DNA of 64,000 bases from Chloroflexota bacterium. Its GTDB lineage: Bacteria > Chloroflexota > Anaerolineae > UBA4142. Both the position numbers and the translations under genes were made by a program. The notes under the pieces are model-generated. The model made no database searches and was not told where the DNA came from. It worked only from the letters and a program-made list of their open reading frames with translations. Below, piece by piece: positions 11,374 through 37,230 of this stretch. How positions within the stretch are numbered: position 1 is the first letter of the stretch; each line of letters starts with the position of its first letter. The DNA lies in NCBI GenBank assembly GCA_016215025.1, contig JACRMI010000009.1, positions 1-64,000 of the forward strand. Direction: 5' to 3'.

Positions 11374-11380
11374 AGCCAAG

Positions 11381-12065: not shown

Positions 12066-12166
12066 GGGAGGTGACTGCTGGCGTCTTTTTTCAAAACACA
12101 AATGGATTCGGCATCCATCATCATTCCCATTTAATTGGGACAATTCCGAAGGAGGAAAGAAGCACC

Positions 12167-13489: not shown

Positions 13490-13509
13490 TCTAAACGGGC
13501 TACGCCCCC

Positions 13510-13576
13510 TGTCACTCTGAGCGAAGCGAAGGGTCTCTTTCTCTGCATCGAGGTGCTTCGCTCCGCTCAGCATGAC
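13510..13576. repeat. Dispersed repeat family A, short copy
   Basis: TGTCACTCTGAGCGAAGCGAAG at the left is matched by CTTCGCTCCGCTCAGCATGAC at the right, giving a hairpin of about 67 bases. It lies between the binding-protein and permease genes and may act as an intercistronic stem-loop. The ATG at 13572 inside it should not be taken as the permease start. Confidence 0.8.
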
Positions 13577-13628
13577 GTTTTGTTTGGCATACTTGGTCTA
13601 TTTTCAAAACAATTTTAGGATTTCATCC

Positions 13629-14525: not shown

Positions 14526-14534
14526 CATTGCTAC

Positions 14535-14628
14535 TGTCATGCTGAGCGCAGCGAAGCATCTCCCTGCTCTGAATTGCGAGACCCCCCGCGGAGTTTACAC
14601 TGAGCGCAGCGAACGTGCTCAGGATGAC
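14535..14628. repeat. Dispersed repeat family A, variant copy
   Basis: TGTCATGCTGAGCGCAGCGAAG at the left and GCTCAGGATGAC at the right bound 94 bases, with an internal second CTGAGCGCAGCGAA core. It separates the two permease genes. The GCGCAGCGAA core differs from the GCGAAGCGAA of most copies. Confidence 0.75.
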
Positions 14629-14652
14629 GAATAGAAATCTCAAGGACACTGG

Positions 14653-16356: not shown

Positions 16357-17041
16357 TCGCATCCACACGTACTATGGCTTGAGTCATATCCTCTTCGACG
16401 TGAGTCTTGAGGTCAAAAAAGGCGAAATCGTCGCGCTGCTTGGACGAAATGGCGCGGGCAAGACGACGACGATGAAAAGCATCATCGGTCTGTTGCATCC
16501 CAAGCAAGGATCGATTCGATTCAAAGGCGAAGAAATCACAGGCAAAGAGTCGTTTTTGTTAGCGCGCAAAGGCTTGGGCTATGTTCCCGATGATCGAAAA
16601 ATTTTTGCCGATTTGTCGGTTGGCGAGAATCTGGAAATCGCCGAACGCAAATCGAAAAATAATTCGGGCTGGGATCGCGCCAAGGTGTACGAACTTTTTC
16701 CAACGCTTAAAGAGATCGAATCACGCCGCGGCGGTTATTTGAGCGGAGGCGAGCAGCGCCTGCTGGCGATTGCGCGCGCGCTCATGGGCAATCCCGATTT
16801 TTTATTGCTCGACGAGCCGATGGAAGGACTCGCGCCGTTGATCGTGCGCCTCATCGAAGAGCAAATCCTCAAGCTGCGTGAAACCGGCTTGACGGTGCTG
16901 CTCACGGAGCAAAATGTCGCGTCGGCGCTGCGCCTCATCGATCGCTGCTACATTATCGACGACGGACACATTCGGTTTCAAGGGACCGTGCAAGAGTTAA
17001 AAGATAATGAAGAAGTACGGAAAAAATACTTGCTTGTCTAA
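16343..17041 (+). CDS. LivF-type ABC ATPase
   Basis: A protein of 232 residues, the usual LivF length. It has Walker A GRNGAGKTT, signature LSGGEQRLLAIARAL, Walker B LLLDEPMEGLAP and the switch region LLTEQNVASA. The ATG at 16343 gives the standard start MLQVDRIHTYYG and overlaps livG by 14 bases. The frame extends 27 codons upstream without a ribosome binding site and is not used. It closes the five-gene importer cassette. Confidence 0.92.
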   Translation: MLQVDRIHTYYGLSHILFDVSLEVKKGEIVALLGRNGAGKTTTMKSIIGLLHPKQGSIRFKGEEITGKESFLLARKGLGYVPDDRKIFADLSVGENLEIAERKSKNNSGWDRAKVYELFPTLKEIESRRGGYLSGGEQRLLAIARALMGNPDFLLLDEPMEGLAPLIVRLIEEQILKLRETGLTVLLTEQNVASALRLIDRCYIIDDGHIRFQGTVQELKDNEEVRKKYLLV

Positions 17042-17056
17042 AGTATCTACCCAAGA

Positions 17057-17173
17057 TGTCATTCTGAGCGAAGCGAACGCGACGCGTCTCGCATTTCGGG
17101 ATGGTAAGATTCTTCGTCGCTCTTTTGAATTCAAGGCACAAGAATCTATAACGAATCGCTCCTCAGAATGACA
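17057..17173. repeat. Dispersed repeat family A, complete copy overlapping a start codon
   Basis: The element is 117 bases, bounded by TGTCATTCTGAG and CTCAGAATGACA, with the internal GATTCTTCGTCGCTC half also present at 11381. The right end provides the ATG of the LutB-LutC gene at 17168, so insertion or retention of this unit has shaped that gene's initiation region. Confidence 0.85.
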
Positions 17174-19222
17174 GACAAGGAACCACAACAAGCCAAGTTA
17201 GAAATGCCCCCAATCACTCCCCCTCGTGTCGATTTTCGCAAAAATTCGCAACACATCGATCCACATATTCCAGTGGCGATTCAACGTTCGACCGCACGCC
17301 TCGTCGCCGTGCGCTCCGCATCAGTCGCGCAAATCCCCGAATGGGAAACGTTGCGTCAGACCGCACACGACATCCGCTTGCACACACTCGATCATCTCGC
17401 CGAATACATTACGCAAGTCGAGCAGCAAATCACGCGCGCAGGCGGACACATTCACCACGCGCGTGATGCGGCGGAAGCCAACGCGATTGTCGTCGAGATC
17501 GCGCGCCAGCATAAGGTCAAAACCGTCGTCAAAGGCAAATCGATGGCGTCGGAAGAGATCGGCTTGAATCACGCGCTGGAACACGCTGGAGTGCGCGCTG
17601 TCGAAACCGATGTTGGCGAATTCATCATTCAACTTGCCGACGTTCGCCCATCGCACATTCTGGGTCCGGCGATGCACATGACCAAAGAAGAAATCGCCAC
17701 GCTGTTCACGCAGAAACTGGGCGTAGAGGCACCACCCAACCCACGTCGCCTCACCGACATTGCGCGTGAGCAACTGCGCGAAATTTTTCTGCGCGCAGAG
17801 ATGGGCGTCACCGGCGCAAACTTTATCGTCGCCGAAACCGGAACGGTCGTGCTGGTGACGAACGAAGGCAACGGGCGGATGTGTACGACGCTGCCGGATG
17901 TTCACGTCGCCGTTGCCGGCATCGACAAGATCATTCCAGATTGGAATGCACTCGCCACACTTTTACCGATGCTTGTTCGAAATGCCACTGGACAAAAACT
18001 GTCATCTTGCACATCGTTCATCACCGGCGCGCGGCGTTCCGATGGACACGGTCCGCGCGAATTCCACTTGGTCTTGCTCGACAACGGACGCACGAATATA
18101 TTGCGTGACCCACTCGCGCGCGAAACCTTGCTATGCATTCGGTGCGCGGCGTGCTTGAACATTTGCCCGGTTTACAATCAGGTCGGCGGACATGCCTACG
18201 GCGGAGTTTACTCTGGACCCATCGGCGCGATCTTGTCGCCGCAGTTGCTCGGCATGCGCGTCGCCCGCGATTTGCCGTTCGCATCGACCTTGTGCGGCGC
18301 ATGTGTGGATGTCTGCCCGGTGAAGATTCCGATTCCAAAAATTCTTTTGCACTTGCGCCATCGCATCGCCGAAGGAGACGCGCAAGAGCAAGCGACGATT
18401 GCAAAAACGGCAAGTGCCGCAGCGAAATGGAGCGCACGCGCGCTCAGCACGCCATCACTCTATCGACTCGGCTCGCAACTAGCCCACCTCGCGCAAATTC
18501 CTTTTCGACGCGGCGCGTGGTTACGCGCACTGCCACCGCCATTGAATCGCTGGACACAAGCGCGACCGTTACCGGCGGTCAATGCGACGTTTCGGCGATG
18601 GTGGAAAAAACGGAAGTTGGAAATTGGAAGTTGGAAGTTGGAGATTGGACGTTCGAGACTGGAGGTTGAGAATCGAAGGAGCGAGACGGCAACGACAGAC
18701 GTTGACGAGATCGATCAGTTGATTGGCGAAGTGAATCGATTGGCGGGCAAGGCGCAGCGTGTGAGTGAGCAGCAAATCGGCGAGGCGTTGAAGCAGTTGG
18801 TCGAGATCGAAAACATCAAAAGCGCGGCGCTCTGGGCGACGTCGGAGATTGCGCGACTCAATCTCGCCGAATGCTTGCGGGCATCGGGCGTTGCGATCAT
18901 TCCGCATGATGCCGACAAGCACGCGATTGCTCAAGCCGACCTAGGAATTACCGGCGTCGATTTTGCGCTCGCGGAGAGCGGCACGCTGGGACTGTTTTCA
19001 TCACCGGACAAGCCGCGCGCGATTTCGCTCCTTCCGCGAGTGCATCTTGTGCTCGTTCATCCAAATGCGCTGTGCTCCAATTTGGCGCAAGTGTTCGATC
19101 AAGTCAAGCGAGAGGACTATGCCGTATTCATCACGGGACCGAGTCGCACATCCGACATTGAATCGAATCCCGTCGTCGGCGCGCATGGTCCGAAATCGTT
19201 GTATGTATGGGTGGTCAGCTAA
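17168..19222 (+). CDS. Fused LutB-LutC lactate-utilisation-type iron-sulfur protein
   Basis: A protein of 684 residues joining two usually separate subunits. Residues about 70-300 form a LUD domain. CIRCAACLNICPVY (Cys 323, 326, 329, 333) and LCGACVDVCPVKIP (Cys 376, 379, 383) bind [4Fe-4S] clusters as in LutB. After a Lys/Glu/Arg-rich linker (about 477-520), residues about 540-684 form a second LUD domain as in LutC (TGVDFALAESGTLGL). LutABC oxidises L-lactate to pyruvate. No LutA is present here, so the FAD oxidase at 9982 may be the catalytic partner. The start ATG lies inside a dispersed repeat and has no clear ribosome binding site; ATG at 17204 is an alternative. Confidence 0.88.
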   Translation: MTDKEPQQAKLEMPPITPPRVDFRKNSQHIDPHIPVAIQRSTARLVAVRSASVAQIPEWETLRQTAHDIRLHTLDHLAEYITQVEQQITRAGGHIHHARDAAEANAIVVEIARQHKVKTVVKGKSMASEEIGLNHALEHAGVRAVETDVGEFIIQLADVRPSHILGPAMHMTKEEIATLFTQKLGVEAPPNPRRLTDIAREQLREIFLRAEMGVTGANFIVAETGTVVLVTNEGNGRMCTTLPDVHVAVAGIDKIIPDWNALATLLPMLVRNATGQKLSSCTSFITGARRSDGHGPREFHLVLLDNGRTNILRDPLARETLLCIRCAACLNICPVYNQVGGHAYGGVYSGPIGAILSPQLLGMRVARDLPFASTLCGACVDVCPVKIPIPKILLHLRHRIAEGDAQEQATIAKTASAAAKWSARALSTPSLYRLGSQLAHLAQIPFRRGAWLRALPPPLNRWTQARPLPAVNATFRRWWKKRKLEIGSWKLEIGRSRLEVENRRSETATTDVDEIDQLIGEVNRLAGKAQRVSEQQIGEALKQLVEIENIKSAALWATSEIARLNLAECLRASGVAIIPHDADKHAIAQADLGITGVDFALAESGTLGLFSSPDKPRAISLLPRVHLVLVHPNALCSNLAQVFDQVKREDYAVFITGPSRTSDIESNPVVGAHGPKSLYVWVVS
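18611..18672 (+). repeat. In-frame minisatellite in the LutB-LutC linker
   Basis: Imperfect tandem units of the type GGAAGTTGGAAATT (about seven bases, GAAGTTG, GAAATTG, GAGATTG) run for about 60 bases and are translated as a KLEIGSWKLEIG-like stretch. Units of this type usually lie between genes. Here they form the linker joining the LutB and LutC halves without breaking the frame. Confidence 0.75.
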
Positions 19223-19320: not shown

Positions 19321-19383
19321 CGTGGCATTTCAACTCTCCCGCCCTAGATGTTTTTCGCTCGTGGGTAAAAAGGGTACAACTTG

Positions 19384-21915
19384 ATGCCCAAGAATTCTCT
19401 TGACCAGCATATGCAACTGTTGAATCGGATCTCCAATTTGCGCTGGAGCATTCCTCTGCTCGTCGCGCTATTCGGCGCGGGTTATGTTTGGTTTGAGCGC
19501 ATACCAACGCCGGATGCTCTTTTGCGCGCGCTTGTCTTTCCTCTCTTGGTCATACCTGCACTGTGTTGGATTGGGCTGACGTGGTTGAACAACGCCGTCC
19601 ACGCCGCGATCAATGAGCATCGTGAGCTTGCTTTGCGCGATCGTGAGTTGGTTGTCCTCAATACCATCGGCGAGGTGGCAGGGCAATCGCTCAACTTGGA
19701 AGCGATGCTGCAAGTCGCGTTGGAGCGAATTGTCGAATTGCTAGCATTGCCCGCCGGGGAAATTTGCGCCTTTGAAGGAAATCGGCTCGTCCGCAAGGCG
19801 CACATCGGAACAGTCACAACTGAGGAACGCGAAATATGTTTTCAGCGCGATGAATGCGTGTGCGCCAAATGCGCGCGCTCGAACGAGATCATCGCCTTGA
19901 AGGACCTCGGCGACGAGAATTCTTTGCAGAATGTTCCGTGCGCGCATGAGGGATTTCGTTCCATCATCACGGTTCCGCTCAAGAGTAAAGATCAAGTGCT
20001 CGGCGTGATTTTGTTGGCAAGTCCGCAACCAAATCTATTTAGTCCCGCCGATCAGCGCATCCTCACCGCCATTGCATCGCGCGTGGCGATGGCAGTCGAG
20101 AATGCCCAATTGTACAAAGAGGCGCATCGGCGCGCATTGCACTTGGAGACGGCAAGCTCTTTGGGACAGCGGATAACCGCGCTCTTGGATGTGGATGCGC
20201 CTTTGACCAAGATCGTCAATCTCATTCGCGATAAATTCGGCTACTATTGCGCGCACATCTTTTTGGTCGATGACACGACGAATGATCTCGTGTTGAGAGA
20301 AGCCAGCGGTCCCGGCGCAGACACGCTCAAAATCAAAGGTCTGCGCTTGAAGATTGGTCAAGAAGGCATCGCGGGCTGGGTTGCTCACACCGGTGAAACC
20401 TTGCTGTGCAACGACGTATCGCGCGAGCCGCATTATTTTCGCGCTGAGTTGGTTCCCGCAACTCAATCGGAACTCGCCGTCCCGTTACGCGCAGGCAATC
20501 GAGTGATCGGCGTGTTGGATGTGCAGAGTGATCGCCAAGATGCGTTCGATAAAGAGGATGTCTCCACGCTCCAAATTCTGGGAAATCAGGTGGGAGTCGC
20601 GGTTGAAAATGCGCGCTTGTTTCAAGAGACCAAGCGCCGATACGAAGCGATGATTGCCTTGCACCAAACGTCGCTAGACATCATCGCGCGCTTGGACACG
20701 ACGCAGCTTTTGCAAGCGGTATTGCAGCGAGGTACGCAATTACTTGACGCGGAGGGCGGCGGACTGGCTCTGTACGACGACGAACGCGCCTTCAATTATG
20801 CCACCGTGAGTTACAACACTCAGCCGAAATGGGAGTCGACCGGTGCAGCGCCGCTGGGTGGTCTCGTTGGTCAAGTGATCCAAAGACACGAGCCAATCAT
20901 CGTGAACGATTATCCTCATTGGGAATATCGCGTCAAAGAATACGAGAATCCATCGCGCACACGCATGATCGGCGTGCCGCTCAAATGGGAAAATCACATC
21001 GTCGGTGCAATGGTCATTATGAATTCTCCGAAAAGCAAACCCTTCGACGAAGACGATGTTTCGGTGTTGGCGCAGTTTGCGGACCTGGCAAGCATCGCGA
21101 TCAAGAATGCCGAATTGCATTCACAGATTAAACAGTTCAGCCAGGACTTGGAACTTCAAGTCGATGCCAGAACCCGCGAGTTGTCCACGGCCAAGGAGGA
21201 GATTGCCGCGCGCTCGGAACAACTGCGTTTGCTTTTGGAAAAAACGATTCGCGCGCAAGAAGAAGACCGCGCGCGCATCGCCCGCGACATGCACGACGAC
21301 GTCGTGCAATTGATTACGTCGGCACGCTGGGAAATTCAAACCGCCGAAGCATTCGCGGGAAACGATTTGAAGAGTGCGGCCCGTGACGGTCTCAAGGCAG
21401 CACACGAATTGTTGAACGAGATCGAAAAACAGATTCGCCGCGCGATCTACAATCTACACCCGCCGGTGCTAGACGCCGTTGGCTTGGGATCTGCGCTGCA
21501 AAGCTATGTCGATCAATTTCGAAAAATCTCCGGCATCGCGTGTCGCTTGGAGATCAACGGCAATGCCTTGCGGTTGCCGATCCAAATCGAAAGCAGCATC
21601 TATCATCTCGTCCAAGAAGCCCTGGCAAACATTGCGGCTCACGCCGAAGCCACTGAATCAGCGGTGGTGTTCGTTTACCACGAAGCGATGCTCGACATTA
21701 CGGTTGAGGATAACGGTTGCGGTTTCGATCAGGAACAATGGTTGCAGGACGCGCGGCGCGATGGCAGCCATCTCGGTTTGTTGAGTATGCAAGAGCGCGC
21801 GAAAAGTTTGACCGGAAGTATGCAGGTCGAATCGGCCGCCGGTTGCGGCACCCGCTTGATTTTTAGGATTCCAATCGAAAGGAAGATCGGCGAATGGACC
21901 CCATCCGCGTTTTGA
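19384..21915 (+). CDS. NarL-type sensor histidine kinase with three GAF domains
   Basis: A protein of 843 residues. Two membrane segments near the N-terminus (about 17-35 and 47-70) are followed by three GAF domains (about 95-240, 265-410, 420-580), a coiled coil, a HisKA_3 dimerisation domain with the phospho-acceptor histidine in RDMHDDVVQL (about residue 637) and an HATPase domain ending TRLIFRIPIE. The first GAF has a cysteine group, C152, C158, C160 and C163, then VPCAHEG. TTG at 19381 directly precedes the ATG and could also serve. The response regulator gene overlaps its end by 22 bases. A transporter-redox cluster follows, the likely target. Confidence 0.92.
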   Translation: MPKNSLDQHMQLLNRISNLRWSIPLLVALFGAGYVWFERIPTPDALLRALVFPLLVIPALCWIGLTWLNNAVHAAINEHRELALRDRELVVLNTIGEVAGQSLNLEAMLQVALERIVELLALPAGEICAFEGNRLVRKAHIGTVTTEEREICFQRDECVCAKCARSNEIIALKDLGDENSLQNVPCAHEGFRSIITVPLKSKDQVLGVILLASPQPNLFSPADQRILTAIASRVAMAVENAQLYKEAHRRALHLETASSLGQRITALLDVDAPLTKIVNLIRDKFGYYCAHIFLVDDTTNDLVLREASGPGADTLKIKGLRLKIGQEGIAGWVAHTGETLLCNDVSREPHYFRAELVPATQSELAVPLRAGNRVIGVLDVQSDRQDAFDKEDVSTLQILGNQVGVAVENARLFQETKRRYEAMIALHQTSLDIIARLDTTQLLQAVLQRGTQLLDAEGGGLALYDDERAFNYATVSYNTQPKWESTGAAPLGGLVGQVIQRHEPIIVNDYPHWEYRVKEYENPSRTRMIGVPLKWENHIVGAMVIMNSPKSKPFDEDDVSVLAQFADLASIAIKNAELHSQIKQFSQDLELQVDARTRELSTAKEEIAARSEQLRLLLEKTIRAQEEDRARIARDMHDDVVQLITSARWEIQTAEAFAGNDLKSAARDGLKAAHELLNEIEKQIRRAIYNLHPPVLDAVGLGSALQSYVDQFRKISGIACRLEINGNALRLPIQIESSIYHLVQEALANIAAHAEATESAVVFVYHEAMLDITVEDNGCGFDQEQWLQDARRDGSHLGLLSMQERAKSLTGSMQVESAAGCGTRLIFRIPIERKIGEWTPSAF

Positions 21916-22535
21916 TTGTAGACGATCATCCGATGATCCGGCGCGGCTTGCGTAATTTTTTATCTTCCGCGCCGGATATCCAAGTTGTCGGCGAAGCGGA
22001 AGACAGCGCAACCGCTTTACGCGCGGCGACGGAGTGCGCGCCCGATGTGATCCTGCTCGACATTCAACTGACCGGAGCCGATGGGGTTGCGGTCGCTTCT
22101 CTGTTGCGCCAAGAACAGCCCAACTCCAAAGTCATTATTCTGACCGCGTACGATAATGATGATTATATTCAAGGCGCATTGCGCGCGGGCGCGCATGCGT
22201 ACATCTTGAAAAAAAGTTCAGGCGAAACGGTTGTGGAAACCATTCGCCAGGTGCATCAAGGCAAACGCCTCTTGTCGCCGGAGTTGATGGATCGCGTCTT
22301 GCAACAGTTTCAGGATTTGGCGCAGATCAAAGCCAAGTATGAATCGGGATTAGCCGAAGACGAGGTCAAGGTGCTGGCGTTGATGGCGCAAGGCGCAACC
22401 ATCGAAGAAATTGCGAAAGCAATGTTTTGGGGCGAGCGAACGGTGCGGCGCAAGATCGACGAAATTATCGTCAAGTTGGACGTCAAGAATCGCACGCAAG
22501 CCGTCGCCGAAGCGATTAAAAAGGGGTTGATCTAA
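21894..22535 (+). CDS. NarL/LuxR-type response regulator
   Basis: A protein of 213 residues. The receiver domain has the acidic pair at 10-11 and phospho-acceptor Asp56 in VILLDIQLTG. A linker leads to a LuxR/NarL-type helix-turn-helix (about 150-212) with GATIEEIAKAMFWGERTVRRK. It overlaps the kinase gene, so the pair is made together. The nearest downstream genes, starting at 22877 on the same strand, are its most likely target. No operator could be defined. Confidence 0.92.
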   Translation: MDPIRVLIVDDHPMIRRGLRNFLSSAPDIQVVGEAEDSATALRAATECAPDVILLDIQLTGADGVAVASLLRQEQPNSKVIILTAYDNDDYIQGALRAGAHAYILKKSSGETVVETIRQVHQGKRLLSPELMDRVLQQFQDLAQIKAKYESGLAEDEVKVLALMAQGATIEEIAKAMFWGERTVRRKIDEIIVKLDVKNRTQAVAEAIKKGLI

Positions 22536-22537
22536 CG

Positions 22538-22605
22538 GTCATTTTGAGCGAAGCGAAGAATATTTTGTGGACATGGTGATACTCTTCGCTCCGCTCAGAG
22601 TGACA
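22538..22605. repeat. Dispersed repeat family A, short copy
   Basis: GTCATTTTGAGCGAAGCGAAGA at the left matches TCTTCGCTCCGCTCAGAGTGACA at the right, making a hairpin that starts three bases after the response regulator stop. It may double as a terminator-like structure, but no T run follows. Confidence 0.8.
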
Positions 22606-22876
22606 GTGCTAATGTCCACCCCTGGACACAAATTGACCGTTTTTTCTCTTCCTCTGCGCGACCGTTCGGGTTATAGTCGATGTACCCACGACGGCGCGGA
22701 GACTCGATGCTGAACGATGTTTGTCTCAATCCTCATCTCGTAATTGTTCTGACTCAGCCGGCAAGTTCAATTCCGGTACCCCAATCCTCGCACTCGACTC
22801 CGTTTTCTGCCTCTCTGATTTATATTTACGCAACCATGTCGAATATTGAAAAACTCAAATCAAGGAGGAGAAGAAA
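22606..22876. other. Intergenic region before the family 5 binding protein
   Basis: Holds a small hairpin TGTCCA/TGGACA near 22613-22628, followed within 20 bases by a T run (22639-22644). There is no clear promoter or gene. The strong ribosome binding site AAGGAGGAG (22861-22869) belongs to the gene at 22877. Confidence 0.5.
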
Positions 22877-24568
22877 ATGAAACACCAGCACCTGTACGTC
22901 GCGCTCACGGTCGCACTGATCGCCTTGCTCATTGTCGTCGCGTGCGCGCCCGCACCAACCGCTGTACCACCTACCTCTGCGCCGACCACTGCGGCTCCCA
23001 CTACGGCTGCACCACCAGCGACAAGCGCGCCCCAAGCGACCAAAGCCCCTGCACCAACGGTTGCACCTACCATTGCGCCGGCCGCCGCGCCCACCGCATC
23101 TGCAAAAGCTCCAACGACCGGTGGTGTTCTGAAAATATCCACCGTGCCGGACGCAGACATCCTGGGTTATCCGCCCACGATGACCAAGCTCAACGATTTT
23201 TATTTTGCCGCAACGAGTCTCGAAACGTTGGCCAAGTTCGATGACATTGGCGCGCCGGTTCCGGGTTTGGCTTCGGAATGGAAGGTGGATGTCGCCGCCA
23301 AGACGATTACGCTCTCGCTTCAAAAAGGTGTCAAGTTTCACGACGGTTCAGATTTCAATGCCAAGGTCGCAAAATGGAACTTGGACGGCATTCGTCAATC
23401 CAAGCGCACCGAACTGGCGGCCGTCGGTTCAATCGATGTGGTCGATGACAATACCATTCGACTCAATCTCAGCAAATATGACAGCAGTATTCTCGTAACG
23501 CTCGCCGGTCCCGTTGGTTTGATGATTTCCCAAACTGCCTTTGACAAAAATGGCGGCGCGGCGTGGGCAGAAAAAAATCCCATCGGCACCGGTCCTTTCA
23601 AATTGGTCAGTTGGCAGCGCGACGTCAAGCAGGTCTATACCCGCTTTGATGGTTACTGGCAAAAGGGCAAGCCGTATCTCGACGGCGTGGAATGGACCAT
23701 CATTGCCGATCCGCTCGTGCGCCTAGCGTCCTTCAAAGCGGGCGAGTCGAATGTCACGCAGAACATCGAACCCAAAGATGCCAAGCAACTCGAAGCCGAT
23801 AGCAAGTATCGAATCTCTACGCTCGCGTCGGCGTTGTATGCGCTTGCCCCAGACGGCTCGAATGCAAATTCTGCGTTCGCCAAACTCCCCGTGCGCCAAG
23901 CTGTCGATTACGCCATCGACAAGCAAGCGATTTGCGAAACGCTCGGTTACGGGTATTGGAAACCGCTCTATCAAGCCGCCGCGCCGGGAAGCTGGGCTGA
24001 AAATCCAAAGGTGATGGGCAACAAATACAATCCAACCAAAGCAAAACAATTGCTCACCGATGCCGGTTATCCCAACGGATTGAAGACGACGATCTATACG
24101 CCCAACTCGCCGCAGATCATCGTAGACATGCTGACGGCGGTGCAAGGTTATCTCAAAGCCGTGGGCATCGATGCAAAAATCGAAGCGATGGAACAAGTTC
24201 GCTATGGCGATGTCTATGCGGGCAAAGGGTGGCAAGATGGTCTCGCGATGGCTCCGATGGGACTGTCGCCTAACGAAATCGGTTTGCTCAACCGTTTGTT
24301 CTTGCCCGGCAGTGTCTTGTTGCCTAACGCGCTTCGTCCAGCCGCTTTCCAACAAAAATTGATCGAGGTTGGCGGAGCCGCCGATAACGATACGAAACAA
24401 AAACTAACCTGGGAATTGCAGAAAATCGGAACTGAAGATAACGCAATGATGATTTGGCTGCACACCAGCATCGGCATCACGGCAAGCCAAACCAAAGTCC
24501 ATGACCATGGTTTCAGCAAAACAATCGGCGTGCCGTGGACACCCGCCGAAGCGTGGATGGACAAGTAA
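22877..24568 (+). CDS. Family 5 (peptide/nickel-type) ABC substrate-binding lipoprotein
   Basis: A protein of 563 residues with a signal peptide and lipobox VVAC (Cys23), a very Ala/Pro/Thr-rich linker (about 24-75) and the family 5 fold. It has the typical LTLQ-type start of strands, KFHDGSDFNAKVAKWNLDG near residues 153-171 and YAIDKQAICETLGYG near 344. The start has AAGGAGGAG at optimal distance. Permeases and ATPase of the same class follow three genes later. Family 5 proteins carry peptides, opines, sugars, metal complexes or small organic molecules. The redox genes between binding protein and permeases suggest that the cargo is later reduced or oxidised. Confidence 0.9.
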   Translation: MKHQHLYVALTVALIALLIVVACAPAPTAVPPTSAPTTAAPTTAAPPATSAPQATKAPAPTVAPTIAPAAAPTASAKAPTTGGVLKISTVPDADILGYPPTMTKLNDFYFAATSLETLAKFDDIGAPVPGLASEWKVDVAAKTITLSLQKGVKFHDGSDFNAKVAKWNLDGIRQSKRTELAAVGSIDVVDDNTIRLNLSKYDSSILVTLAGPVGLMISQTAFDKNGGAAWAEKNPIGTGPFKLVSWQRDVKQVYTRFDGYWQKGKPYLDGVEWTIIADPLVRLASFKAGESNVTQNIEPKDAKQLEADSKYRISTLASALYALAPDGSNANSAFAKLPVRQAVDYAIDKQAICETLGYGYWKPLYQAAAPGSWAENPKVMGNKYNPTKAKQLLTDAGYPNGLKTTIYTPNSPQIIVDMLTAVQGYLKAVGIDAKIEAMEQVRYGDVYAGKGWQDGLAMAPMGLSPNEIGLLNRLFLPGSVLLPNALRPAAFQQKLIEVGGAADNDTKQKLTWELQKIGTEDNAMMIWLHTSIGITASQTKVHDHGFSKTIGVPWTPAEAWMDK

Positions 24569-24575
24569 TAAACGA

Positions 24576-24608
24576 ACGTGCGACGCATCGCGGAGATGCG
24601 TCGCACGT
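24576..24608 (+). other. Intercistronic stem-loop after the binding-protein gene
   Basis: ACGTGCGACGCATC and GATGCGTCGCACGT form a perfect 14-pair stem with a 5-base loop. No T run follows, so it is unlikely to be a terminator. Such hairpins after binding-protein genes often protect the upstream mRNA and raise binding protein over the later products. Confidence 0.75.
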
Positions 24609-24629
24609 AACATTCATAGAGAGGTAAGC

Positions 24630-26624
24630 ATGACCTCGTGGTGGAATTATATCCAGCAAACCGCGTCGATTCCGGAATGGGCGTACCCCATCCGCTATGA
24701 TGTCGAAAATCAAGTAACGACCGATGTCCTGGTTCTCGGCGGCGGCATCGCCGGTTGTCATGCCGCGATCAATGCCGCACGCAAAGGTGCGCGCGTTGCC
24801 ATCGTGGACAAGGGCAGCATTCGACGGAGTGGACAAGGCGGCGCAGGCGTCGATCATTGGCAAGCGGCGTGTACGAATCCCTGCAGTAAGGTATCGCCCG
24901 AAGAGTACGCCCAAGCTAGTATCGATAGTTTTGCTGGTTACGATTGCGGTTCCATGCGCTACATCCAATGCCGCGAATCCTGGGACACGCTGCTCGATTG
25001 CGAAAAAATGGGTGTCCAAATCCGCGATGTGCATGACGAATTCAAAGGCGCGGCGTTTCGCGATGATGAAACCAAGTTGATGTTCACATACGATTACGAA
25101 AATCGGCACACGCTGCGCGTCTATGGTCACAACATAAAGCCGCGTCTCCACCGCGAGGTCAAACGACTGGGCGTGCAAATTTTTGATCGCGTGATGGCGA
25201 CCAGTTTGCTAACCGAAGACGGCAAACAAGGGACTCGTGTCGTCGGTGCGACCGGCGTCAACGTGCGCACCGGCGAGTTTTACATCTTCAAAGCGAAAGC
25301 GATTGTCCTAGCGATGGCACATCCGCGTCGCGAGTGGACGTTTTCGACCGAGTTGAACGGCGGCAGCGCAACCTTCGCAGACCTGAACATCGTCGGCGAT
25401 GGTCATGCAATGGGATGGAATGCCGGTGCGGAATTTGCCGCGATGGAACGATCCATCGGCAGCGCAGGTGGCTTTGCTTACATTCAGTACGGCGTTGGCT
25501 ATCCTGACAACACTTGGTACGGCTGCACGATGGTCGATGCGCAAGGCAAACAAGTGCGCTGGTTCAATCGCGATGGTCAAGAACTCAAAACAACTGAGGA
25601 ACGATTTCAACCGGCCCCCGGTCAAAAATTTATTTTGATGGGCGGCGGCTTGGTCGGCGGCGCAATCGGGCGCGAAGTCAAAGGGAATTATATTGACAAT
25701 ACTCTTTCCGATCTGATTCGCAAAGGCGAAATCCAATTGCCGCTCTACGCTGATCTTCCCAGTTTGCCCGAACACGAACGCCGCGCAATTTTCGGTCTCA
25801 TGGTTGGCAACGAAGGCAAGAGCCGCATTCCCGTGTACGACATTTACACCAAAGCCGGTTTCGATCCCGACAAGGATATGCTTCAAGCGCCCGTCATGCC
25901 ACCCGATGCGTATAAAAGTCCACACTATCCGGCGGGCGCGCCTGTTCCGCAATGGCGAGAAATTTTCGGCGGCGGTTTGGTCGCCGATTGGGATATGCGT
26001 TCTAGCTTAGAAGGGCTGTACGCCGGCGGGCGCACCGTGTACGGCGGTGGTGAACATGCCGGTGCGGCGACGAGCGGTCGCTATGCCGGGCGCAAAGCCG
26101 CTGAGTATGCGTTAAACGCGCGAGAGCTAGAACTCGACCAAAAACAAATCGAACGGGAAAAAGCGCGCGTGTATGCGCCACTCCAAAAAAGCACAGACAG
26201 TATCGGCTGGAAAGAGATGAACGCTGGCATCTGTCGTATCATGCAAGACTATTGCGGTCAGTACCGCAACGAAGAAACACTTCAAGCCGGGTTGCGAATA
26301 TTGGCAAGCGTCAGAGAATCAGAATTGACCCAAACCTATGCAGCCAATCCGCATGAGTTAGAGCGTGTGCTTGAATGTCACACGATCATCACCGTTGGAG
26401 AGCTCGTGATGCATGCATCGCTCGCGCGCAAAGCAAGTAGTCGTTATTTGAATTTTTATCGACTGGATTATCCTGAACTTGATCCCGTAGAATGGCACAA
26501 ACTTTTACCGATTCGATTAGAAGATAACCAAGTCAGGGTACGCGAATTGCCCCACGATTATCATCTGCGCGCGCCTTTCGCTTCCAGCTACGAAGAAAAT
26601 TATCAAGCCCATTGTGGTTTGTAG
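24630..26624 (+). CDS. AprA/fumarate-reductase-family FAD flavoprotein
   Basis: A protein of 664 residues. The FAD-binding motif VLVLGGGIAGCHAA (about 33-46) is followed by the acidic end of the second strand (VAIVDKG). The SGQGGAGVDHW loop is typical of the fumarate reductase/succinate dehydrogenase/AprA family. GGRTVYGGGEHAGAATSGRYAGRKAAEYAL closes the FAD domain near 470-500, before a C-terminal helical domain. No signal peptide is seen, so it is cytoplasmic. A two-cluster ferredoxin follows, as in AprAB of sulfur metabolism, but no sulfur genes are nearby. GAGAGGTAA precedes the ATG at 24630. Substrate unknown; it may reduce or dehydrogenate the imported compound. Confidence 0.85.
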   Translation: MTSWWNYIQQTASIPEWAYPIRYDVENQVTTDVLVLGGGIAGCHAAINAARKGARVAIVDKGSIRRSGQGGAGVDHWQAACTNPCSKVSPEEYAQASIDSFAGYDCGSMRYIQCRESWDTLLDCEKMGVQIRDVHDEFKGAAFRDDETKLMFTYDYENRHTLRVYGHNIKPRLHREVKRLGVQIFDRVMATSLLTEDGKQGTRVVGATGVNVRTGEFYIFKAKAIVLAMAHPRREWTFSTELNGGSATFADLNIVGDGHAMGWNAGAEFAAMERSIGSAGGFAYIQYGVGYPDNTWYGCTMVDAQGKQVRWFNRDGQELKTTEERFQPAPGQKFILMGGGLVGGAIGREVKGNYIDNTLSDLIRKGEIQLPLYADLPSLPEHERRAIFGLMVGNEGKSRIPVYDIYTKAGFDPDKDMLQAPVMPPDAYKSPHYPAGAPVPQWREIFGGGLVADWDMRSSLEGLYAGGRTVYGGGEHAGAATSGRYAGRKAAEYALNARELELDQKQIEREKARVYAPLQKSTDSIGWKEMNAGICRIMQDYCGQYRNEETLQAGLRILASVRESELTQTYAANPHELERVLECHTIITVGELVMHASLARKASSRYLNFYRLDYPELDPVEWHKLLPIRLEDNQVRVRELPHDYHLRAPFASSYEENYQAHCGL

Positions 26625-26664
26625 GGTTGGCAAATTCGATTGGATAGATTTGGAGCAAACTCTT

Positions 26665-27009
26665 ATGAGTGATAAAATTTACATGATTCCCAATCCGCCA
26701 ACACCCAATGTGCCGATCCAATTCGATCCGACATTTTGCACCGGGTGCAACGTTTGCGTTGAAGTGTGTCGCACCGATGTGTTGATGCCCAATCCTGAAA
26801 GGAAAAAACCTCCCATCGTGCTTTACCCTGACGAATGTTGGTATTGCGGAATCTGCGTTGAAGATTGCTCCATACCCGGAGCCATTATGATGGTACATCC
26901 GCTTAATCAAAGCGTCGTGGTGAATTGGAAGCGCAAAGAAACGGGCGAGTTTTTCCGACTCGGTATGAAGAATCCACCTCCACCGAATACACGACCGCCC
27001 GCAAAATAG
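26665..27009 (+). CDS. Two-cluster ferredoxin, AprB-like partner of the flavoprotein
   Basis: A protein of 114 residues with two [4Fe-4S] motifs, CTGCNVCVEVC (Cys 25, 28, 31, 35) and CWYCGICVEDC (Cys 58, 61, 64, 68). A C-terminal tail, ending in a Pro-rich stretch, could wrap around the flavoprotein as the AprB tail does. It lies 40 bases after the flavoprotein and should pass electrons to or from its FAD. GGAG precedes the ATG at 26665. The first motif lacks the proline that commonly follows the last cysteine. Confidence 0.88.
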   Translation: MSDKIYMIPNPPTPNVPIQFDPTFCTGCNVCVEVCRTDVLMPNPERKKPPIVLYPDECWYCGICVEDCSIPGAIMMVHPLNQSVVVNWKRKETGEFFRLGMKNPPPPNTRPPAK

Positions 27010-27046
27010 ATTGTATCTGCGATGTGGATGACGAAAGAGAAACCAA

Positions 27047-27994
27047 GTGGTCGTCTTTGTCGTACGCCGATTAATTGAAACAGTGATTGTTCTGGTGATC
27101 GTGAGTCTGATCGCCTTTTCGCTGTTGCATATCACCCCCGGCGACCCCGCCCTCTACATCCTGGGTGATTCGGCGACGGCAGAGCGAATCGATGCACTGC
27201 GTCACGAACTATGGCTCGATCAACCGTTGTGGGTGCAGTATGGACGTTGGGTGACCAATTTGCTTCAAGGCAACCTGGGCAACTCGATTGTGTTTCGCGA
27301 GAGCGTCACCAAATTATTCGCGGTGCGGCTGCCAATCACTTTTCATCTCGGCATCGTCGCGCTCGTCCTCAGTATCCTCTTGAGCATTCCAGCAGGTATC
27401 CTCAGCGCCGTGCGACGTGGCGGCTGGCTCGATTCCATCATCAGCGTCTTCGCCAACCTCGCAATGGCAATCCCCATTTTCTGGTTGGGCATCCTGGGAA
27501 TTTATTTCTTTGCGCTACAACTGGGATGGTTGCCCGTGCAGGGGTACACTTCGCCCGGAGACGATTTTTGGTTGAGCACCCGGCAACTTGTTATGCCCGC
27601 TATTTGTCTTGCACTCGTGCCGCTGGCATCACTCACGCGCCAAACTCGTTCGAGTATGTTGGAAGTGATTCGGCAGGATTATATACGCACGGCGCGCTCC
27701 AAGGGTTTGTCCGAGTGGAACGTGATTACGGGTCACGCGCTAAAGAACGCACTCATTCCGGTCGTAACGTTGTTGGGAATGCAACTGCGGAACTTGGTCG
27801 GCGGGGCAATTCTGGTCGAGCAAGTTTTCAACATTCCTGGGATGGGCCGCTTGCTCGTATCCGGCGTTTTTGGCAAGGATTATATTCTAGTGCAGGGGAT
27901 GGTCATGATCGTGGGGGTGGTCGTCGCGCTAGCAAATCTGGCGGTAGACATTTCCTATGGTTACATCGATCCGCGCATCCGGTACGATGAATAA
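27047..27994 (+). CDS. DppB-type ABC permease
   Basis: A protein of 315 residues with six membrane segments. The N-terminus, RRLIETVIVLVIVSLIAFSLLHITPGDP, is the DppB-family signature, and the ATPase-contact loop IRTARSKGLSEWNVITGHALKNALIP lies near 222-247. The start is GTG at 27047, with only a weak purine-rich site upstream. It works with the DppC-type permease and the fused ATPase. Confidence 0.9.
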   Translation: MVVFVVRRLIETVIVLVIVSLIAFSLLHITPGDPALYILGDSATAERIDALRHELWLDQPLWVQYGRWVTNLLQGNLGNSIVFRESVTKLFAVRLPITFHLGIVALVLSILLSIPAGILSAVRRGGWLDSIISVFANLAMAIPIFWLGILGIYFFALQLGWLPVQGYTSPGDDFWLSTRQLVMPAICLALVPLASLTRQTRSSMLEVIRQDYIRTARSKGLSEWNVITGHALKNALIPVVTLLGMQLRNLVGGAILVEQVFNIPGMGRLLVSGVFGKDYILVQGMVMIVGVVVALANLAVDISYGYIDPRIRYDE

Positions 27995-28012
27995 GGATGC
28001 AAAAAATATTTC

Positions 28013-28077
28013 CCTAGCCGAGGCGGCTCCCATGCCGCCCGCTTCGCCTGGTCGGGCGTGGGAGCCCGCTCCGCTTT
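28013..28077. repeat. Palindromic repeat family C
   Basis: CTAGCCGAGGCGGCTCCCATGCC at the left and GGGCGTGGGAGCC at the right form a hairpin between the two permease genes. A related unit, also containing CTAGCCGA, GGCTCCCATGCC and GTGGGAGCC, lies at 63403-63458 in the opposite direction. Confidence 0.7.
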
Positions 28078-28090
28078 GGAACAATACTGC

Positions 28091-28993
28091 ATGTCAACCA
28101 CAACCGTAACTCTAATTCCTTTTGATGATTCGTTGCAAGCGTCTCGCACGAAAGCATGGCAACGCTTTCTCCGCGTCTTCCTCGGTCGCAAGGTCGTCAT
28201 CTTTGGCACGGTCATTATCGTGATTTTGATTTTCGTCGCGCTCACGGCAGATTGGATTACACTTTACGATCCGTATCAGCAAAACCTGCGCGATGCGCTC
28301 AAGCAACCATCCAGCGCGCATCTGCTCGGAACCGATGCGTTGGGACGCGATACGCTGAGTCGAATCATTTACGGTACACGCACATCACTGGCAGTAGGAA
28401 TCAATTCAGTGGGTTTGGCGGCGCTAATCGGCATGGCGCTGGGGTTGATCGCCGGTTACCTGGGTGGTTGGATCGGCACATTGATTATGCGCTGTGTGGA
28501 CGCGTTGATGGCGATTCCGCCATTGATGCTCGCACTCTCGATTGGAGCAGCGCTGGGCGGTGGACTCACCAACGTGATTATCTCACTCGGCATTTCGTTG
28601 ATACCCACCTATGTGCGCTTGATGCGCGGCCAAGTGCTCGCGGTCAAGCAAGCCGATTATATCAAGGCGAGTGAAGTGACCGGCGCAAGCGACTTGACCA
28701 CGATGCTTGTCCATGTATTTCCAAATTGTCTATCGCCCTTGATCGTTCTCATCACGCTCAATCTGGGTGTCGCGATTATCGCCGAAGCTGGGTTATCGTT
28801 CGTCGGACTCGGTATCACGCCGCCGGGCGCAGCGTGGGGATCGATGGTCAACGATGGTTATCGTTATTTAATGACCAATCCAATTCTATCCATCGCGCCG
28901 GGTTTCTGTGTGATGCTTGTGGTCTTGGCATTCAATCTCGTGGGCGATGGTTTGCGTGACGCGCTCGATCCTCGTTTGCGGGGTACGCTTTAA
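28091..28993 (+). CDS. DppC-type ABC permease
   Basis: A protein of 300 residues. A hydrophobic N-terminal helix is followed by [23 protein letters not shown], the DppC hallmark. The contact loop [22 protein letters not shown] lies near 195-215. It ends in the usual [17 protein letters not shown] at 28091 is preferred because the upstream 11 codons of open frame overlap repeat family C. It is followed 4 bases later by the ATPase gene. Confidence 0.9.
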
Positions 28994-28997
28994 GAAT

Positions 28998-31022
28998 ATG
29001 GCTCATCTGCTCCACGTCCGCAATCTCACCACTCAATTCAAAATCGACGATTGTACCATCCACGCCGTGGATGGCGTTTCGTATCACATCGACGCGGGCG
29101 AAATCGTCAGCATCGTCGGCGAAAGCGGCTGCGGCAAATCGGCGAGTCAACTTTCGGTCTTGCAATTGATTCCGACACCACCGGGCAAAATCGTAGGTGG
29201 CGAGGTTGTCTTCGACGGCGTGGACTTGCTCAAGTTCAAATCGGATAGTTCGCAAATGCGCGCGATTCGCGGCGGCAAGATCGGCATGATCTTTCAAGAA
29301 CCGATGACCTCGCTGAATCCTGTGTTGACGATTGGACAGCAGATCATCGAGTCGTTGGTGCTGCATCTCAAAATGGATCAGGGTAGTGCGCGTTCGCGTG
29401 CGATTGAACTACTCAAATTGGTTGGCATTCCCGATGCGGAACAACGCATCAATCACTACCCGCACCAATTCAGCGGTGGAATGCGACAGCGCGTGATGAT
29501 TGCCATGGCGCTGTGTTGCAATCCCCAGCTGCTCATTGCCGACGAAGCGACGACCGCCGTCGATGTGACGACTCAAGCGCAACTGCTCGAACTCTTGCGA
29601 AAGACCGTCCAACAATTCAATCTGTCTTTGCTCATCGTCACGCACAACCTGGGAATCGTCGCGCGCTATGCTCAAAGAATTTACGTGATGTATGCCGGAC
29701 GCATCGTCGAATCGGGAACCGCGAAAGAAATCTTTGGCGATCCACGTCATCCCTACACACTCGGTCTGCTTAAATCCGTCCCGCGCCTCGATGAACCCAA
29801 AGGACGGCAGCTCATTCCGATTCAAGGTATGCCGCCGAGTCTCACCCATCAAATAACGGGGTGTGCCTTTTATCCACGTTGCTCACGTCACGTCGACGCT
29901 TGCCAGCGCGATTCTATGCCTGTGCTCGAAAATATCGGCGGGCAACATTTTGTGGCTTGTCATTCTTCAGTCAGCCCCTATGACACTCCACGCATTTCGA
30001 GGATTGACAACTTACCTGTCGCCACAGCTGCGCCACGCAGCAAGACCCTGCTTGAAGTACGCAATTTGAAAATGTACTTTCCAATGACCAAGGGAGTGCT
30101 TCGCCGCAAGGTCGCGGACTTGAAAGCGGTTGACGACGTTAGTTTCAGTTTAAAGCGAGGGGAGACGCTGGGGTTGGTCGGCGAAAGTGGCTGCGGCAAG
30201 ACGACGGTCGGGCGTTGCTTGCTGCGGCTTTATCGACCCATCGCCGGAGAGATTCATTTTGAGGGACGCGACATTGCGCCGCTAACAAAAAATCAAATGC
30301 GCGCGATTCGCCACAAGATGCAATTGATCTTCCAAGACCCGTACAGCTCTTTGGATCCGCGTCAAAGTGCAGGCGATATTGTCGGCGAGCCGCTCAAGAT
30401 TCACCATCTGGTCAAGAACAAAAACGAATATCGGGATCGCGTGGCGGAACTTTTTCAAATGGTGGGACTCAATCCCAATCTAGCAGATCGCGTGCCGCAC
30501 GAATTTAGCGGCGGACAACGACAGCGCATCGGCATTGCGCGTGCGCTCGCGACGAATCCATCGTTTATCGTGTGCGACGAGCCAATCTCAGCGCTCGATG
30601 TATCGATCCAAGCGCAGATCGTCAATCTGCTGGATGAGTTGCAAGATCGACTGGGGGTAGCGTATCTGTTTATCGGACACGATTTGTCAGTCGTACGCCA
30701 CATCAGTGATCGCGTGGCGGTCATGTATTTGGGGCGCATCGTCGAAATGACCGATTGCGAATCGTTGTACGCCAATCCGTTGCATCCATACACCCGCGCG
30801 CTTTTATCGGCGGTTCCCATTCCTGATCCGTTTGTCGAAGAAAAGCGCGGGCAAGTGATCTTGCTAAAAGGCGAAGTACCTAGTTTGTTGAACCCACCAA
30901 CGGGGTGCAATTTTCATCAGCGTTGCCCCATCGCCACGCGAGAGTGCAGTCAAGCTGTACCGCTGCTGCGCAACGTCAATTCGAATCATCACGTCGCCTG
31001 CATTCATATGGGCGAGTATTGA
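28998..31022 (+). CDS. Fused DppD-DppF type dual ATPase
   Basis: A protein of 674 residues containing two complete oligopeptide-type ABC ATPases in one chain. The first has Walker A GESGCGKS (41-48), signature [15 protein letters not shown] and a Cys-containing C-terminal segment, GCAFYPRC. The second has GESGCGKT (about 394-401), signature [15 protein letters not shown] and its own tail, GCNFHQRC. The cysteines of each tail fit the iron-sulfur or zinc-like C-terminal motif of the DppD/DppF families. It starts four bases after the DppC stop. Its own stop is only 7 bp from the convergent araD gene, with no visible terminator between. Confidence 0.92.
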
Positions 31023-31029
31023 ACGCCTC

Positions 31030-31692
31030 TTATTTCTTTTGGCTCGCGGCAAAAGACCCGTAGCGATTTTGATAGCGGTCGTAGTTCGCGGCGATCTCTT
31101 CGAACGGTAATTCTTCAATCTGTCCAATCTGCATCGCGAGCCAAACCGTCTTGGCAATATCCTCAACCATGACTGCGGCTTTCACCGCCTTTTGCACCGT
31201 CGCGCCAATCGTGAACACGCCATGTTGCTTCATCAAAATGGCAACCGACTTGCCGATTTTGCGCGTGACCTCTTCGCCGATTTCTTGGTCGCCGATGCGC
31301 ACATACCCCGCGCACGGAATCTCCGTCCCAAATTCATCCGCAATCGCCGTGAGGCAAACGGGAATCGATTTGCCCACCGCTGCGAATGCAGTCGCATAGT
31401 TGGAATGCGTGTGAACGATGCCATTCACGTCAGGACGATGTTTATAGATTGATAAATGCGACGCAGTATCCGTCGAAGGTCCCAGGGTCGCTTCGATCAC
31501 GTTGCCGTCCAAATCGACAATGGCCATATTCTCCGGCGTCAGTTCCCCGAACAAGACACCGCTGGGCTTGATGACGACAAGTCCGGTTGCTGGGTCGCGT
31601 CCGCTTACATTGCCGCTCGTCCACGTGACTAGATGATTGTCAGGCAATGCCATGTTCGCGCGCCAAACTTGTTTGCGCAATTGTTCAAGCAT
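31030..31692 (-). CDS. araD: L-ribulose-5-phosphate 4-epimerase
   Basis: A protein of 220 residues, class II aldolase fold. It interconverts L-ribulose 5-phosphate and D-xylulose 5-phosphate, the last step of the bacterial L-arabinose pathway. Zinc ligands are visible: H94 and H96 in IVHTHSNY and H157 in MKQHGVFTIG, with Asp75 at the position of the E. coli acid (GPSTDT). The phosphate loop SGNVSGRD is at 26-33. Its ATG overlaps the araB stop by one base (TGATG). It is the last gene of the locus. Confidence 0.92.
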   Translation of the reverse strand: MLEQLRKQVWRANMALPDNHLVTWTSGNVSGRDPATGLVVIKPSGVLFGELTPENMAIVDLDGNVIEATLGPSTDTASHLSIYKHRPDVNGIVHTHSNYATAFAAVGKSIPVCLTAIADEFGTEIPCAGYVRIGDQEIGEEVTRKIGKSVAILMKQHGVFTIGATVQKAVKAAVMVEDIAKTVWLAMQIGQIEELPFEEIAANYDRYQNRYGSFAASQKK

Positions 31693-33383
31693 CAGTCACC
31701 CCATGCCTGATGCAGTGCATCGGCTTTGATTTTTTTCAACGTCTTCATCACATTGTTCTCGCCGCGTCCAAAATAGTTATACAAACACAGGTATTCAGAG
31801 TATAATTGATCGTACACTTGTCGATTTGAGGCGATCGGTTTGAACGATTGTTTTTTCAGCCGCGCCATTTTTGGCGTCGCTTCAAAGATCGAATCGTAAC
31901 CGCCAGCCGCGCGCCCTGCCGCGACCGCGCCGTACATCGCCGCGCCAAGCGCCGGCGTCTGCGTCGAGCTGCTCACCTTGATTTCGCGCCCCGTCACATC
32001 GGCGTAAATTTGCATCAACAATTTGTTCTTCTCCGGTAGTCCACCGCAGGCGACGAGCTCATTCACCGCCACGCCATTCTTATCGAATGCTTCGACGATG
32101 ACACGCGTACCGAACGCCGTCGCTTCGATCAACGCGCGATAAATCTCCGGTGCTTTGGTCGCCAGTGTCGCGCCAACGAGCAAACCAGTCAAATCAACAT
32201 CGACCAGCGTCGAGCGATTGCCATTCCACCAATCGAGCGCAAGCAAACCCGATTCGCCCGGCTTTAATTTCGCCGCTTCGAGTTCCAGTGATTTGTGCAA
32301 ATCGATTTTGCGTTTCTTTGCCGCTGCATGATATTCCGGCGGGACTGCATGATCGACAAACCAAGCAAAGATGTCGCCGACGCCGGATTGTCCCGCTTCA
32401 TAGCCGAAATAACCGGGGATGATGCCGTCTTCGACATAGCCGCACATGCCTTCGATGATGCGTTCATTCGTGCCGACAACCATGTGGCAAATGCTCGTGC
32501 CCATCACCATCACCATGCGCCCCGCTTCGACGACAGTCGCCGCGGGAACCGATACATGCGCATCGACATTCGCGACGGCAACCGCAGTCCCAGGTTTCAA
32601 TCCAGTGAAATGCGCGGCGCGTGAAGTGATGCGCCCTGCTCGTCCCCCCAATGGCGCGATTCGCTGCGATAGTTTTTCTTGCACGACATTTGCCAAACGC
32701 GGATCGAGCGCAGCATAATAATCATTGGAAGGAAAACCGTCGCGTTTCGACCACAGCGCTTTGTAACCGGCGGTGCAAGCATTGCGAGTCTCTTCTCCGG
32801 TCAATTGCCACACCACCCAGTCCGCCGCTTCGATGAAACGATCGGCGGCGTTATAAATCTCTGGCGCTTCGTCGAGAATTTGCAGCGTCTTTGAAAAAAA
32901 CCATTCGGATGATATTTTGCCACCGTAGCGCGCAAGCCACTTTTCGCCCATCTGTCGCGCCGTTGCATTGATCTTGTCGGCTTCGGGTTGCGCCGCGTGA
33001 TGCTTCCACAGTTTCACCCAGGCGTGTGGATGGTGGCGATATTCAGGAATCACGCACAGCGGCGTGCCATCGGCTTTGACGGGCAGCATCGTACAGGCCG
33101 TAAAATCAATGCCGACCCCGATCACATCGGCAGGATCGATTTTGGTTTTCTTGAGCACGGCAGGAACCGTGGAGCGAAAAGTGCGAATGTAGTCTTCCGG
33201 GTCTTGGAGTGCCCAGTCCGGCTCTAATCGAATCTTGGTGCCCGGCAAGAATTCATCGATCACGCGATTCTTGTACGGATACACCGCCGTCGCGATTTCT
33301 TTGCCGTTGCTCACATCGACCAGCACTGCGCGGCCGGACTCTGTTCCAAAATCCACTCCAATGGTGTACTTGCGCTTACTCAT
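31692..33383 (-). CDS. araB: L-ribulokinase
   Basis: A protein of 563 residues, the usual length for AraB. It is a FGGY-family sugar kinase with the N-terminal phosphate-binding motif [17 protein letters not shown] and the FGGY-like C-terminal segment [21 protein letters not shown]. It phosphorylates L-ribulose, the product of the arabinose isomerase at 44160. GGGAGGATAAC precedes the ATG. It is separated from the permease genes by 194 bases holding a hairpin, so it may have its own promoter or be at the end of the long transcript. Confidence 0.92.
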
Positions 33384-33512
33384 GTTATCCTCCCGATGAT
33401 TCGATTATCATTTTCAGACACAAAATCATTTTATGCAGTTCAAGCGATTTAATCAATTCTTTGCACGTCATAGAATGTTCGGCAATGTTCCAATCTTCCT
33501 CGCGAAAGTGAC

Positions 33513-33544
33513 AATAGGTTGAACGTGAAACCGTCCAACCTATT
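33513..33544 (-). other. Hairpin between the permease and araB genes
   Basis: AATAGGTTG (33513-33521) pairs with CAACCTATT (33536-33544), loop of 14 bases. On the minus strand it lies upstream of the permease gene and downstream of araB's start region; transcription passes from the permease side to araB. No T run follows, so processing or protection is more likely than termination. Confidence 0.45.
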
Positions 33545-33577
33545 GCACCGAGGAGGAGAACAGCATCACGCGTCCGT

Positions 33578-37180: not shown

Positions 37181-37230
37181 AGACAAAATCCGCTTTCTTC
37201 GTTCAGAACTTTTGAATGATTACTCAGGAA

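Follow-up and report, generated by a model that had tools for sequence, protein, structure and literature searches.

A predicted import-and-redox operon in a Chloroflexota genome contains a candidate flavoprotein-ferredoxin family related to AprAB

Introduction

Several described flavoproteins combine the FAD_binding_2 and Succ_DH_flav_C domains, among them FrdA, SdhA and NadB. AprAB (TIGR02061/TIGR02060; Protein Data Bank (PDB) 1jnr) consists of an FAD flavoprotein and a separate small 2[4Fe-4S] ferredoxin subunit, and the FAD/Fe-S PAPS reductase of Methanothermococcus thermolithotrophicus (8a8o) is an alpha/beta pair of flavoprotein and ferredoxin as well. In proteobacteria, a further flavoprotein family, PRK08275 (NF006131), is encoded in clusters with a ferredoxin, a NitT/TauT-type ABC importer and a HEAT protein (plus DUF971); no characterisation of this family was found in the literature searched. 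Family-5 importers of the Dpp/Opp/Nik/Gsi kind comprise a solute-binding protein, two permeases and ATPase domains that can be fused, as in GsiA.

Here, we report a comparative analysis of an operon that resembles parts of all these systems. It lies in the window, that is, the entire 64,000-nucleotide stretch that was analysed (positions 1 to 64,000 of contig JACRMI010000009.1, Chloroflexota bacterium, assembly GCA_016215025.1). An earlier note, made from the DNA sequence alone, had described a Dpp-type importer with an AprAB-like pair inserted behind a two-component system, and had proposed it as a candidate for an undescribed system without a named pathway. The reading that we favour, with somewhat better than even confidence, is that the operon is an import-and-redox module for an organic compound, on which the flavoprotein-ferredoxin pair acts after import.

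Results

Gene content and layout

All genes named in the earlier note were found on the + strand by open reading frame (ORF) and domain searches:

19381..21915, + strand: histidine kinase (HK) with three GAF domains, HisKA_3 and HATPase
21894..22535, + strand: response regulator (RR) of the NarL/LuxR type
22877..24568, + strand: family-5 solute-binding lipoprotein (SBP; Pfam SBP_bac_5, E 3.5e-73)
24630..26624, + strand: FLAV, an AprA-fold flavoprotein of 664 aa (Pfam FAD_binding_2 and Succ_DH_flav_C)
26665..27009, + strand: FDX, a two-cluster [4Fe-4S] ferredoxin (Fer4 hits)
27047..27994, + strand: DppB-type permease (BPD_transp_1, E 2.2e-45)
28091..28993, + strand: DppC-type permease (BPD_transp_1, E 1.1e-31; OppC_N; start refined)
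28998..31022, + strand: fused DppD-DppF ATPase (two ABC_tran and two oligo_HPY domains; start refined)

The longest ORF of HK begins 3 nt before position 19384, where the gene had previously been placed. From SBP to the ATPase (22877-31022), the genes are collinear and separated by 61, 40, 37, 96 and 4 nt, which suggests that they form one transcription unit; the gap between RR and SBP is 341 nt. A promoter scan gave nothing better than shuffled sequence. The SBP has a lipobox-like LIVVACA at its N-terminus, its start codon is preceded by the Shine-Dalgarno-like AAGGAGGAG, and it scores below all NCBIfam SBP equivalog cut-offs. The importer set is complete, as had been claimed (SBP_bac_5, two BPD_transp_1 permeases and two ABC ATPase domains); as a small correction, the two ATPases, DppD and DppF, proved to be one fused ORF and hence a single gene. 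The location of the flavoprotein and ferredoxin genes between SBP and permeases was borne out (24630-27009), and this insertion of redox genes sets the operon apart from Dpp/Opp/Nik/Gsi importers.

The two-component pair

HK and RR had been regarded as part of the system, a claim that comparison with the two closest relatives of the operon led us to reject. The pair is absent from one of them (L046). In the other (L003), HK is matched over its C-terminal part alone, with the N-terminal half missing, and a 383-aa gene, which from its sequence appears to be HisC-like, separates RR from SBP; about 25 codons of this gene persist as a relic in the RR-SBP gap of the window. We therefore consider HK-RR an adjacent neighbour rather than a conserved part of the module. 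Such pairs do occur near other FLAV copies (L014, L018 and L024), so that regulation by them is possible.

FLAV and FDX as a conserved core

A pattern scan of GTDB contigs recovered 53 FLAV loci that are 39-93% identical. The hosts are mostly Chloroflexota, Deltaproteobacteria, Acidobacteriota and Firmicutes metagenome-assembled genomes (MAGs), along with SAR324 and others, and include a cultured member of the Firmicutes, Moorella sulfitireducens. Some genomes, of deltaproteobacteria and of Moorella, encode several full-length FLAV copies as well as many shorter AprA-like relatives. Within Chloroflexota, the close family is rare (2/400 genomes at E<=1e-60, the source genome included), and it is present in 3 of the 14 listed genomes from the taxonomic family of the source.

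FDX contains two CxxCxxCxxxC motifs with eight cysteines; in an alignment of 28 family members, the second cysteine of the second motif varies and both the N- and C-terminal tails are conserved. A six-frame profile search placed FDX within 600 bp of FLAV, on the same strand, in 53/57 testable copies. The FLAV-FDX pair is thus a true conserved core, and we infer contact between the two subunits. FDX scores only 21.9 bits against the aprB model; its structure was predicted with no more than moderate confidence, and a Foldseek search with this protein by itself yielded nothing at E<=0.001.

Relationship of FLAV to AprA, PRK08275 and FrdA

In Foldseek searches of the PDB, the AlphaFold (AF2) model of FLAV (pLDDT 91.3) matches the PAPS reductase 8a8o best and AprA 1jnr next (TM 0.67-0.68 for the two), with succinate dehydrogenase and fumarate reductase structures ranking after these. 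The description of the pair as AprAB-like accordingly stands as far as the AprA-like fold (TM 0.68) and the separate 2[4Fe-4S] subunit are concerned. Sequence conservation is low: FLAV is about 20% identical to AprA and 22% identical to the PAPS reductase over the alignment, and it reaches 107.3 bits against TIGR02061, where the cut-off is 641.75. Its nearest NCBIfam model is PRK08275 (198.5 bits, with a cut-off of 587), followed by models for adenylyl-sulfate reductase, and none of these scores comes near its cut-off. In a maximum-likelihood tree, a placement that the earlier note had asked for, the 50 FLAV family rows form a clade of their own with 100/100 support on a long stem (1.41), apart from AprA, PRK08275, FrdA/SdhA and NadB. 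Nor was a characterised FLAV orthologue, which by the earlier note would have refuted its proposal, found in PDB, NCBIfam or the literature searched.

The position of the FAD-linking histidine of FrdA (motif RSH) is occupied by glycine in 50/50 FLAV sequences, as in AprA, so that FAD, which FLAV is predicted to bind, is probably held non-covalently. None of FrdA R287, H232, H355 and R390 is conserved in the joint alignment, which is poor around H355 and R390. AprA residues were numbered as in A. fulgidus and verified against 1jnr. N74, W234 and R265, which we take to be catalytic active-site residues, are not kept across the 50 FLAV sequences, the R265 position being G/L/I/A in the family and R in all AprA; H398 falls opposite a gapped FLAV loop (37/50 gaps), near which lies the family-specific R443. 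The FLAV family has a near-invariant set of its own, comprising D75-H76-W77, R132-D133, R144-D145, R163, D303, D375, R384, E395, R443, W454, W527 and E529. As judged from these alignments, the aligned catalytic residues of AprA and FrdA are lost and this other, largely polar set is present in their place. Annotation of FLAV as either AprA or FrdA is therefore inappropriate, even though an AprA-type FAD/ferredoxin way of working is predicted.

Scores, tree and residues together led us to reject assignment to AprAB, FrdA/SdhA or PRK08275. FLAV differs from AprAB also in its linkage to importers, from the PAPS reductase in lacking a sulfur-assimilation context, and from PRK08275 in clade, importer class and accessory genes. 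Compared with fumarate reductase and succinate dehydrogenase, the operon lacks FrdB/SdhB-type and membrane subunits and encodes only a bacterial-type ferredoxin. By these sequence measures, FLAV-FDX is a distinct enzyme family, neither AprAB nor fumarate reductase.

Linkage to importers

The earlier note had made its proposal depend on conservation of gene order, a condition that close relatives bear out. The complete order is kept in L003 and L046 only, close relatives whose FLAV is 93% and 84% identical to that of the window. Together with the 37 family-5 SBPs of the source genome, which make chance proximity no rare event, and the many FLAV copies without nearby Dpp genes, this would suit a chance insertion, in one lineage, of an unrelated FLAV-FDX pair among the genes of an ordinary importer for peptides/dipeptides or nickel. 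We regard such an insertion as unlikely. Rearranged versions of the association occur in several phyla, as SBP-DppB-DppC-FLAV (L006, L014 and L170) or SBP-DppBCDF-FLAV (L023, L041 and L044). With L003 and L046 left out, 9 loci have a family-5 SBP no more than 6 kb away from FLAV, against 1.9 expected from a density of 219 such SBPs in about 60 Mb of 16 genomes (Poisson 1.8e-4, only approximate because the loci are related and not phylogenetically independent).

A stronger sign than this count is that the linked SBPs tend to be those most similar in sequence to the window SBP. With linkage assigned by coordinates, the FLAV-linked SBP is the closest in-genome match in G010, G494, G495 (both), G496 and G005, and linked SBPs rank 2-4 of 12 in G009; the rule is broken, by genome, in G012 and G497 and, by locus, in L041 and L043. 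Chance insertion also sits poorly with the position of the pair between SBP and permeases within one tight transcription unit. Linkage of FLAV-FDX to importers beyond chance is thus supported. Other copies adjoin transporters of the Liv (L004, L008, L016 and L027), TRAP (L010 and L034), SSS (L032 and L036) and RbsC (L047) types, the Liv and RbsC permeases being named partly by inspection of their sequences. Since the transporter class varies, Dpp included, the substrate may differ across the FLAV family.

Gene neighbourhoods and the likely substrate

The FLAV cluster of Moorella encodes a pyrogallol transhydroxylase, whose large and small subunits match the PDB enzyme at E 5.9e-183 and 1.8e-82, together with FDX, a DctP protein and an amidohydrolase-like protein that clusters with an Amidohydro_2 protein of L025. 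FLAV has URO-D/MtaA-like neighbours in L006 and L011, and in L051 it follows another URO-D gene; a reductive dehalogenase is found near FLAV in L034, a glycyl-radical enzyme in L042, and a cyclase with hydrolases in L170. In the source genome, the nearest paralogue of the window SBP is encoded among S15/CocE-type hydrolases and putative CaiB-like/enoyl-CoA genes, not among peptide genes. These neighbours suggest that organic compounds, possibly phenolic ones, are catabolised, the phenolic step depending mainly on the Moorella locus. That locus is also the single case of transhydroxylase-FLAV adjacency, the two lying apart elsewhere in the same genomes, and we rejected a general association. 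A molybdenum enzyme upstream in L046, considered as a transhydroxylase, proved to be DmsA-like, with a score of 855 bits that exceeds the cut-off.

The Moorella locus additionally contains an Arylsulfotrans-type gene, and a sulfatase is encoded near L171.

Use of pyrogallol or aromatics has been inferred for related Chloroflexi (PMC3971608, PMC4959651); in the portions of these two papers that our search covered, the FLAV-FDX pair is not mentioned.

The fold matches to PAPS reductase and AprA, the two sulfur-related neighbours and the NitT/TauT-type importers of PRK08275 relatives would all be compatible with a sulfur-compound enzyme whose substrates are sulfonates, sulfate esters or sulfite brought in by the importer. 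We consider this very unlikely, given the separate FLAV clade, the loss of N74, W234 and R265 across 50 sequences with H398 gapped in most, the lack of any AprA above cut-off in the source genome, and the typical FLAV neighbours, which are not sulfur genes.

The earlier note had raised the possibility that the imported compound serves as an electron acceptor. Terminal reduction by FLAV-FDX would fit the adjacency of redox pair and importer, the reductive dehalogenase (RdhA) next to FLAV-FDX in L034 and the multiple copies in deltaproteobacteria and Moorella. Still, a respiratory role appears quite unlikely: a domain search revealed neither a membrane anchor nor a quinol-oxidising subunit nor a cytochrome in the operon, FLAV and FDX lack an evident signal peptide, and importing an acceptor at the expense of ATP costs energy.

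Discussion

Under the favoured reading, an import-and-redox module, the lipoprotein SBP would capture a small organic compound, which the DppBC-DppDF transporter would bring into the cytoplasm. There, FLAV, with non-covalent FAD in an AprA/PAPS-reductase fold, would exchange a hydride (two electrons) with the compound, and FDX would relay electrons singly, through its two [4Fe-4S] clusters, to or from the low-potential pool of the cell. Most probably the compound serves as a substrate for catabolism, and our best current guess is a hydroxylated aromatic or a ring-derived acid of one. We infer the substrate class, the direction and the electron partner from the evidence above; reduction is slightly favoured over oxidation, a judgement that we base on the ferredoxin and on the reductive neighbours.

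More tentatively, FLAV-FDX might represent a new class of anaerobic, ferredoxin-coupled enzymes that reduce or dehydrogenate (poly)hydroxylated aromatics or cyclic compounds related to them, using catalytic residues that AprA and FrdA do not have, and diversified into many substrate-specific paralogues, each with its own importer.

The literature searched contains no description of the FLAV family or its gene context, and no described pathway with such a gene set, in keeping with the earlier proposal of an undescribed system. What does not hold is uniqueness of the combination of importer, flavoprotein and ferredoxin, which PRK08275 clusters share.

Several genomes of uncultured anaerobes encode multiple copies of FLAV-FDX. 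Current readings as 'fumarate reductase-like' or 'AprA-like' can mislead inferences on sulfur or fumarate respiration, and a tested substrate would give the enzyme family a name of its own. It would also make it possible to trace, in anoxic soil and groundwater, a likely route by which organic carbon is turned over.

Other gene clusters and intergenic sequences in the window

A second stretch of the window likewise has the look of an import-redox cluster, and a sugar cluster of the ordinary kind occupies 31030-37186 on the minus strand:

9982-19222: FAD-linked oxidase, Liv-type ABC importer genes and fused LUD/LutB-like iron-sulfur protein
within 31030-37186, minus strand: class II aldolase/ribulose-5-phosphate epimerase-like gene
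within 31030-37186, minus strand: sugar-kinase-like gene (read from sequence)
within 31030-37186, minus strand: two RbsC-like permeases (read from sequence)
within 31030-37186, minus strand: RbsA-like ATPase (read from sequence)

Between the response regulator and binding-protein genes lies a remnant of a HisC-like gene, comprising roughly the first 25 codons (about 22646-22760); in L003, a close relative with the same operon, an intact HisC-like gene (6679-7830) is found in this position. The gap between the binding-protein and flavoprotein genes contains a perfect 14-bp inverted repeat with a loop of 5 (24576-24608), and the corresponding insert in L003 is longer and different.

AprA-like relatives and other genes in related loci and genomes

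In L162 (G006, contig C309), shorter AprA-like flavoproteins alternate with solo family-5 binding proteins, with no permeases between them. The genome containing L003 (G007) also encodes, on contig C25, an AprA-like protein (L073) that scores 407 bits against aprA, below the 641.75 cut-off. In L034, the flavoprotein-ferredoxin pair and a TRAP transporter are followed directly by a reductive-dehalogenase-like protein (8119-9363; TIGR02486, 238 bits, above the cut-off).

A URO-D/MtaA-like family of about 445 aa is heavily expanded in genomes of the same kinds (G009, G502, G503), with 18 copies in a 2.3-Mb genome. An arylsulfotransferase-type protein is repeatedly paired with a protein of about 288 aa, which in L010 weakly matches glutaredoxin, in Moorella and SAR324:

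L010, 6961-9311: arylsulfotransferase-type/~288-aa pair
L168, 10263-12674: arylsulfotransferase-type/~288-aa pair

A parallel system on proteobacterial plasmids

Three proteobacterial plasmid loci (L067, L068, L069) combine a flavoprotein of the separate PRK08275 family with a ferredoxin, a HEAT protein and a NitT/TauT-type ABC importer, a combination for which a literature search found no description; two of the three also include DUF971. These clusters are a system parallel to the flavoprotein-ferredoxin-importer arrangement.
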